This document shows, in pieces, positions 23,148 through 27,332 of a DNA stretch of 50,471 nt; within the stretch, counting starts at the first letter, position 1, and each line of letters opens with the position of its first letter. The stretch comes from Roseospira navarrensis (GTDB taxonomy: Bacteria > Pseudomonadota > Alphaproteobacteria > Rhodospirillales > Rhodospirillaceae). Made by a program: the position numbers and the translations under genes. The notes under the pieces are model-generated. The model saw nothing but the letters and a program-made list of their open reading frames with translations, did not search any database and was not told the origin of the DNA. Location of the stretch: NCBI RefSeq assembly GCF_009601025.1, contig NZ_WIVE01000031.1:1-50471 (forward strand). Direction: 5' to 3'.

Positions 23148-23296
23148 ATACCAGCGGCGGGTGAGTGTGACTCACCCGCCCAGCGGCACCGGCCCTCTCC
23201 CCCACCCGGCTACCCACGACAGTATCCTTGGGGTGGCCGGGTGGGGGAGAGGGCCGGCTACGGACTACAACGGTCATCGTCAGATGCCGTTGGTAT
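23148..23296 (+). mobile_element. 149-bp MITE-like palindromic element, copy A
   Basis: The ends are ATACCAGCGGC (23148-23158) and GCCGTTGGTAT (23286-23296), which are inverted repeats with one mismatch. Inside are GGCGGGTGAGT/ACTCACCCGCC (11-bp arms, 3-base loop) and a longer stem with arms of about 18 bp beginning CCCTCTCCCCCACCCGG and ending GGGTGGGGGAGAGGG. Copy B at 26482-26644 shares ends and both hairpins. No transposase gene is encoded. Confidence 0.85.
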
Positions 23297-26481: not shown

Positions 26482-26644
26482 ATACCAGCGGCGGGTGAGT
26501 GTGACTCACCCGCCGAGCCGCACCGGCCCGCTCCCCCACCCGGCCACCCCCCATCCTTTTCCTTGGGGATACTGTCGTGGGTGGCCGGGTGGGGGAGCGG
26601 GCCGGCCACGGGCTTCAACGGGCATCCTCGGATGCCGTTGGTCT
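26482..26644 (+). mobile_element. 163-bp MITE-like palindromic element, copy B
   Basis: The ends are ATACCAGCGGC (26482-26492) and GCCGTTGGTCT (26634-26644). The internal GGCGGGTGAGT/ACTCACCCGCC hairpin and the long CCCCCACCCGGCC/GGCCGGGTGGGGG stem match copy A at 23148-23296; the central loop differs and carries extra CC-rich sequence. It ends 22 bp before the start codon of the next gene, so it forms most of that gene's upstream region. Confidence 0.85.
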
Positions 26645-26666: not shown

Positions 26667-27332
26667 ATGCGTGCCCTGACTCCCTTGCCCCCGAAGGCCC
26701 TGCTGCCCGTCCTGGTTCTCATAGTGGGACTCGGTCTGGCGATGCCGGTGTGGGCCGACTCCGACCCGGAGTCCGGCGCCGACGACGCCCCCGGCGCGGC
26801 CTACTGCGCCGCCGTGGCGCGCGACTGCGGCGCGTCCTGCGCCGACTCCACCGAGCCGGGCAGCGCGGCCGCCGCCGCCTGTCAGGCCCGCTGCGCCATC
26901 GAGCGGGCGGCCTGCGACACCCGCGACAGCCTGTCCGGTGTCGAGCCCTGGCTGTCCGAGAAGGCGGACCGGATGGACCGCTTCATGGACGGCTTCCGGA
27001 GCCCGGACGACGAGGACGGCTCGGACGGGGGATCGGACGGGGGCGCCATGGCCGAGGCGTCCTGCGCGGCGCGCCACGACTCCTGCGAGATGCGCTGCGA
27101 GATCCGCCATGATGACGACGCCTACGGCCGCGCCGGCTGCGAGAGCAAGTGCGCCATCGACCGCGCCACCTGCGAGGCGGGCGCCGGCGTGGAGACCGCG
27201 CGGCCCTTCATCGAGCGCGAGGCCGAGCGGCTTCAGGACTTCTTCGGCGGTTTCCTGGAGGACGACGAGGCCGCGCCGCCGCCGCCGCCCGCGTGGGGCG
27301 AACCGAACCCGGACGGCACGATGGATCTTTGA
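26667..27332 (+). CDS. secreted cysteine-rich protein with two mirror-symmetric six-Cys repeats
   Basis: The 221-residue protein has a Sec signal peptide (hydrophobic core about 11-28, likely cleavage after VWA at 30). Two homologous modules follow. Module 1 has cysteines 47, 54, 58, 72, 76 and 83; module 2 has 133, 140, 144, 158, 162 and 169. Both have the spacing C-x6-C-x3-C-x13-C-x3-C-x6-C, which is the same read backwards. Each module is followed by an acidic amphipathic helix ending in FMDGF or FFGGF. A Gly/Ser/Asp-rich linker joins them and a Pro-rich tail ends the protein. I do not recognise the family. The spacing suggests helical hairpins closed by three disulfides in the periplasm. 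An AGAGGAGA ribosome binding site is present. Confidence 0.8.
   Translation: MRALTPLPPKALLPVLVLIVGLGLAMPVWADSDPESGADDAPGAAYCAAVARDCGASCADSTEPGSAAAAACQARCAIERAACDTRDSLSGVEPWLSEKADRMDRFMDGFRSPDDEDGSDGGSDGGAMAEASCAARHDSCEMRCEIRHDDDAYGRAGCESKCAIDRATCEAGAGVETARPFIEREAERLQDFFGGFLEDDEAAPPPPPAWGEPNPDGTMDL

Follow-up and report, generated by a model that had tools for sequence, protein, structure and literature searches.

What kind of fold, and what role, should be assigned to a small exported protein of the alphaproteobacterium Roseospira navarrensis in which the same palindromic six-cysteine pattern occurs twice? The gene lies in a 50,471-nucleotide stretch (contig NZ_WIVE01000031.1 of assembly GCF_009601025.1, hereafter the window), where an ATG at 26667 opens a 221-residue ORF on the forward strand (26667-27332, with the stop ending at 27332). 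A mechanical ORF list extends the same frame upstream to a GTG at 26577 (251 residues). The protein is divided as follows.

26667..26756, + strand: Sec-type signal peptide, residues 1-30 (from hydropathy; without a lipobox)
26805..26915, + strand: module 1, Cys47-Cys83, C-x6-C-x3-C-x13-C-x3-C-x6-C (motif and full-length model)
26916..26996, + strand: predicted amphipathic segment, residues 84-110, with EPW inside and FMDGF at its end (family alignments and model)
27063..27173, + strand: module 2, Cys133-Cys169, spacing as in module 1 (motif and AlphaFold2 model)
27174..27254, + strand: predicted amphipathic segment, residues 170-196, with FFGGF at its end (alignments and model)
27255..27329, + strand: acidic Pro-rich tail with NPDGTMDL at its end (family C-terminal statistics)

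Gene layout and the cysteine motif

The preliminary description called the protein secreted, in agreement with the Sec-like signal peptide found at residues 1-30: the maximum 12-residue hydropathy is 2.99 at the N-terminus, compared with 1.18 elsewhere in the protein, and the leader ends in PVWA, with cleavage likely after Val-Trp-Ala (site placed by eye). A hydrophobic leader is present in all 24 family proteins checked, with start codons picked by eye. Reading by eye, without a predictor, found no twin arginine in the window leader, and RR occurs near the start in a few relatives. The mature protein contains exactly 12 cysteines, all in the two modules, and from the first module on has a net charge of -22 and a pI of 4.2.

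Both modules have exactly the spacing originally reported (6-3-13-3-6, the first cysteine being residue 47), and the mirror symmetry is exact, since mirror-paired cysteines sum to 70, 70 and 70 in module 1 and to 242, 242 and 242 in module 2 (mature numbering). The segment following each module does end in a conserved Phe/Gly motif as claimed, but this motif is F-x-x-G-F (FMDGF, FFGGF) and not Phe-Gly-Phe. In relatives the ending approximates [FL]-x-x-[GD]-[FL] by eye, and an [AK]PW position is also conserved in the family alignments.

Cysteine conservation in homologues had been set beforehand as a refutation test, and conservation is what was found. In six species of the genus every one of the 12 cysteines is invariant, as against 52 of the 179 other mature residues, and dN/dS against the window copy is 0.36-0.48. 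The pattern 6-3-n-3-6 (n = 10-17) is present in all 22 BLAST loci with E<=5e-6 (the window's included), which were picked by E-value and not by cysteine pattern, and in none of the eight weaker loci fetched (E 0.003-0.11). The invariance within the genus and the presence of the motif in all strong loci argue that it is not a product of chance. These alignments show a genuine gene whose cysteines are under more constraint than any other part of it. In the family the loop length varies (10-17), while the 6-3 and 3-6 arms are fixed.

Family extent and genomic neighbourhood

A single-protein scan of genome contigs returned no relative, while BLAST over 60 genomes (R. navarrensis included) gave some match at E<=1 in 33. 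A six-row alignment profile retrieved ten named loci, including Caenispirillum, Novispirillum, Roseospirillum and MAGs (one labelled Rhodospirillum), and a profile of eleven single-module relatives (A1) matched 34 of 199 genomes sampled from the order. The larger profile A6 (51 modules) matched 61 of 317 genomes of the order at E<=0.01 and 53 at E<=0.001, counts that hold partly by construction, since A6 includes many of the sequences it finds and its members were chosen by motif. By taxonomic family, A6 matches are found in 26/73 genomes of the window's own, 15/48 of a second and 6/6 of a third.

Sampling the whole class gave matches in 5 of 385 genomes, of which two already belonged to the family, one (L116) was judged a chance match, and two, L115 and the probable lipoprotein L114 (judged by eye), carry 6-3-13-3-6 and have little else in common with the family. 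A phylum-wide sample gave 7 of 398: two already known, three resembling copper storage protein 1 (Csp1-type) and two judged chance (L119, L120). Eight weak matches within the order, when fetched, comprised two that bear the motif, two that are Csp1-like by eye and four without the motif. The secreted-looking proteins L214 (6-3-14-3-6) and L215 (6-3-13-3-6, followed by a proline-rich stretch) carry the motif in other contexts. L216 and L217 resemble Csp1-type proteins, by eye only. Single-module, two-module and, in one genome, three-module (L200) proteins are seen, so the module exists in one, two or three copies. A module tree with too few columns gives the d1/d2 split a support of 32/0, which neither establishes nor rules out one shared duplication for all two-module proteins.

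The C-terminus shows a bias of its own. Of the 44 family ORFs, 27 have I or L as their last residue and 7 have T, compared with 5.9% (I plus L) and 1.6% (T) in a background of 185 neighbouring ORFs; the family sequences share ancestry, and the background ORFs come from mechanical calling. Within the genus, the tail ends in PDG...D[LI]. That the free C-terminus is conserved after a proline-rich linker that varies suggests docking, a speculative assignment. Charge from the first module on is net negative in 34 of the 44 ORFs, neutral in 4 and positive in 6.

The window copy sits between an LPG_synthase_TM gene, which precedes it, and an opposite-strand gene for a SpoU-type methylase, beyond which a Rieske protein is encoded; glmS is absent beside it. 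In relatives, positional linkage to glmS is clear: 17 of 41 loci have a same-strand glmS no more than 4.4 kb upstream, and at 8 of the 41, spread over four taxonomic families, the start of the hairpin gene (longest ORF used) lies -1 to 12 bp past the glmS stop. At 24 of the 41 loci, some on short contigs, no upstream glmS was seen. NCBIfam names one GlmS and one GlmU representative, and in relatives the hairpin gene often comes after glmU-glmS. At four loci (L074, L005, L077 and L083, two of them within the window's genus) a glutathione-disulfide reductase-type gene begins 39-194 bases beyond the last codon of the hairpin gene, in the same orientation; this identity comes from one cluster representative (L099) over the NCBIfam cut-off. 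A functional link between the hairpin gene and glmS is speculative, and the order of glmS, hairpin gene and gor may be no more than an inherited arrangement. Genomes without a match had been expected to hide a relative behind glmS. In 30 genomes with no or weak BLAST matches, reading by eye of same-strand ORFs of at least 60 codons with at least four cysteines found no motif within 900 bp after glmS, some contigs ending earlier; two of these genomes carry the motif elsewhere (G019, and G010 with L215).

In the third taxonomic family (f17), an 86-117-residue ORF lies 21-106 bases past the last codon of the hairpin gene on the same strand at 6 of 6 loci (L097:9565-9837, with equivalents in L091, L099, L101, L105 and L106). 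A Pfam scan of one copy (L097) gave no match. In the window, a near-perfect palindrome with G+C-rich arms of ~26 bases lies upstream of the gene (26520-26610; RNA fold -97.3 kcal/mol, z -7.75). It looks REP-like and is dispersed, with 83 matches listed over both genome strands, hence about half as many places, and with a second copy in the window at 23186-23262.

Predicted fold and disulfide pairing

Structure prediction had been proposed as a check on the hairpin reading and did not refute it: AlphaFold2 gives a helix-turn-helix for each module, with cysteines on both helices. For module 2, aligned with 13 other modules, helices are predicted at 2-20 and 25-74 (mean pLDDT 87.8; 89-98 in ten-residue blocks over the cysteines, down to 57 at the end). 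For the full mature protein they are predicted at 12-31, 37-80, 95-117 and 122-171, with an unreliable arrangement of the two modules (pTM 0.39; linker 85-91 with pLDDT <50). In module 1 the helices 12-31 and 37-80 hold Cys 17, 24, 28 and Cys 42, 46, 53, respectively (mature numbering), and the segment after the module is modelled as a continuation of the second helix. Each module is therefore very probably a helical hairpin, as judged from these models. The predicted turns (21-24 in the module 2 model; 32-36 and 118-121 in the full-length model) fall 1-2 residues from the centres of cysteine symmetry (24, 35 and 121) in each model.

At 100 degrees per residue, the 6-3 spacing puts three cysteines within 40 degrees of each other, and of 81 tested spacings only 3 are so tight and none is tighter. 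Searching all collected loci with A6 (hmmsearch) gave 85 distinct segments, of which 12 lack the six-cysteine core. Reading assigned these to helix-only fragments of members (4), Csp1-type proteins (3), matches judged chance (3) and relatives with fewer cysteines (2). One of the last two, an ORF near the three-module gene of L200, lacks C3 and C4 together, while in L211 the first module is without C1 and C6 and the second is complete (6-3-6-3-6). Both thus miss nested partners, in two weak matches (E 0.0007 and 0.004) to a profile that, being built from six-cysteine modules, under-detects cysteine losses. Both the position of the turn near the symmetry centre and the joint absence of nested partners fit disulfides 1-6, 2-5 and 3-4, which probably form in each module. 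The R. navarrensis genome has six matches to the DsbA family (PF01323), which also covers enzymes other than DsbA.

Known hairpins and candidate roles

The statement that no named family has this pattern holds for the libraries searched: the window protein has no Pfam or NCBIfam match at E<=10, ten relatives give nothing over either cut-off (best E 0.0099; NoBody, BSMAP, Syntroph_Cxxx and other near-misses all fall under their cut-offs), and 14 modules give nothing significant against PHROGs (best E 0.074). A single-sequence PDB search with the window protein was empty. A6 against the PDB (E<=10) gave six sub-threshold matches: EcAMP1 (0.099), Tim10/DDP (0.19), SP15 (0.4), Prp3 (1), a vicilin fragment (4.8; presumably alpha-hairpinin-like) and a designed inhibitor (9.7). 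Both EcAMP1 and Tim10/DDP form helical hairpins carrying a twin CX3C, and it is this spacing that aligns with the profile; with the longer A1 profile, twin-CX3C proteins were not found in the PDB. Foldseek with both models gave no significant match and nothing with E <2; for module 2, nemertean neurotoxin B-IV (PDB 1vib), which we take to be a helical hairpin, ranks second (TM 0.53 by target, E 4.7, non-significant).

Plant alpha-hairpinins (EcAMP1, PDB 2L2R; the six-cysteine nigellin-1.1, PDB 2NB2) are helix-loop-helix peptides with a CX3C on either side and two disulfides, and the disulfides of the six-cysteine members are nested. Their four-cysteine motif is given as CX3C-X4-20-CX3C and their six-cysteine motif as CX3CX3C-X4-20-CX3CX3C, palindromic with three cysteines per helix (PMC11591084, excerpt). 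The window module is likewise predicted to be helix-loop-helix, and its inner four cysteines fit CX3C-X13-CX3C, while the outer pair lies at x6, outside the six-cysteine motif. The family further differs in being spaced 6-3 instead of 3-3, bacterial, exported and mostly acidic, with an extended amphipathic segment behind the hairpin and a conserved C-terminus, and its sequence similarity to alpha-hairpinins is non-significant (the EcAMP1 match). Small Tims (twin CX3C) and CHCH proteins (twin CX9C) are helix-loop-helix proteins that reside in an oxidising compartment and have an outer and an inner disulfide (PMC3759932, excerpt). They have four cysteines, two rungs and Mia40 oxidation, whereas the window protein has six cysteines per module and a signal peptide. 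The earlier comparison to these folds as similar in idea is supported by the hairpin model and by twin-CX3C proteins heading the PDB matches, which are however non-significant.

Other proteins share parts of the spacing. Csp1 is helical and exported and has a first hairpin of C-x6-C-x3-C-x13-C-x10-C, but lacks C5 and has a further Cys-rich half with other spacing and, according to an excerpt of PMC7558416, a Tat signal. Aphid BCR3 is palindromic, CX3CX6C-X(21-25)-CX6CX3C (PMC9604261, excerpt), with 3 outside and 6 inside. Extracellular loop 1 of connexins reads CX6CX3C (PMC9062032, excerpt) and loop 2 reads CX4CX5C. BCR3 and connexins are animal proteins in contexts unlike that of the window protein.

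We consider it probable that the protein is an exported periplasmic scaffold of tandem hairpins with nested disulfides and a C-terminal docking tail, perhaps serving the envelope, the docking role and the envelope link being speculative. After export to the periplasm, two alpha-helical hairpins would form in tandem, each locked by disulfides 1-6, 2-5 and 3-4 through a DsbA-type system and each running on into its amphipathic segment. The hairpins would provide a rigid, protease-resistant scaffold, and a flexible Pro/Asp/Glu-rich linker would carry a docking residue, Leu or Ile (Thr in one clade). The amphipathic segment and the free C-terminus may bind a periplasmic partner, perhaps at a PDZ-like site. 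Because the gene often follows glmU-glmS in relatives, an ancestral match to the supply of cell-envelope precursors is conceivable.

The cysteines might instead bind Cu(I) or another soft metal in the periplasm, lining a helix core as in Csp1, with the two hairpins forming a four-helix bundle. The phylum-wide profile picked up three Csp1-type proteins (L118, L121 and L122, E 1e-4 to 9e-4), of which L121 matches copper storage protein 1 (PDB 5fjd) at 5e-17 and has a first hairpin of 6-3-13-10, the window spacing without C5. Comparison of A6 with a Csp1-type profile (A8) by hhalign gives E 3.3e-4 at a probability of 38.5%, which is weak, and Csp1 is absent from the A6-PDB matches up to E 10, where twin-CX3C hairpins are present. 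Csp1-type proteins have Tat signals (PMC7558416, excerpt), while the window leader lacks a twin arginine, so that the protein would meet DsbA unfolded. The strict mirror symmetry, the even number of cysteines and the absence of cysteines in nested pairs fit disulfides, and no copper gene is found among ten neighbours scanned with Pfam, making metal binding unlikely. (In Pfam, none of L118, L121 and L122 finds a match below E 0.07.) More doubtful again is a holdase resembling small Tims, in which hairpins and amphipathic helices assemble to shield clients en route to the outer membrane. The compartment is topologically comparable, amphipathic segments follow the hairpin, and complex formation by small Tims, which are helix-loop-helix proteins, depends on their disulfides (PMC3759932, excerpt). 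The sub-threshold Tim10/DDP match (E 0.19) is however non-significant and rests on the CX3C spacing, with no Pfam match to that family at E<=10, and a patchy presence, 26 of 73 genomes in the window's own taxonomic family, ill suits a general chaperone.

The most improbable of the readings considered is a secreted alpha-hairpinin-type peptide with a role in antimicrobial action or competition. Export, patchy distribution and fast evolution outside the cysteines would suit it, as would the fold class shared with the plant peptides (PMC11591084, excerpt). Antimicrobial peptides have a positive surface charge in common (same excerpt), whereas most family ORFs, the window's among them, are net negative. 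No immunity or bacteriocin-export gene is found among ten neighbours scanned with Pfam. Co-location with glmS is, to our knowledge, not typical of bacteriocins.

Helical hairpins with nested disulfides are best known from eukaryotes, in small Tims, CHCH proteins, plant alpha-hairpinins and venoms. Disulfide-pinned helical hairpins are a known kind, including palindromic six-cysteine ones in plants (PMC11591084, excerpt). As far as the libraries and literature searched go, this family of bacterial proteins appears new, as do its cysteine spacing, its linkage to glmS and its C-terminal bias; no description of the family was recognised among the matches listed from open-access PMC literature. A further reading, quite improbable, takes the module as an alphaproteobacterial equivalent, in the periplasm, of the twin-cysteine hairpins of the mitochondrial intermembrane space, with DsbA in place of Mia40 as its oxidant. 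It would recur in one to three copies and in secreted proteins that are otherwise unrelated, including a likely lipoprotein from outside the order, and may serve the envelope as an adaptor or carrier. If true, this may show that the fold was present in the lineage from which mitochondria came. Returning to the preferred scaffold reading, the symmetric three-rung family would offer a clean test case for Dsb-dependent folding and the window hairpin a possible ultra-stable scaffold. The family is also an uncharacterised candidate envelope factor, positionally tied to GlmU-GlmS in relatives, and C-x6-C-x3-C-x10-17-C-x3-C-x6-C can serve as a search motif for unannotated secreted proteins.

A variant arrangement is seen at L019/L088, where two paralogues among three tandem genes have an extra cysteine before and another after the hairpin (8 cysteines); this extra pair may form a fourth bond that anchors the segment after the hairpin to the hairpin itself.
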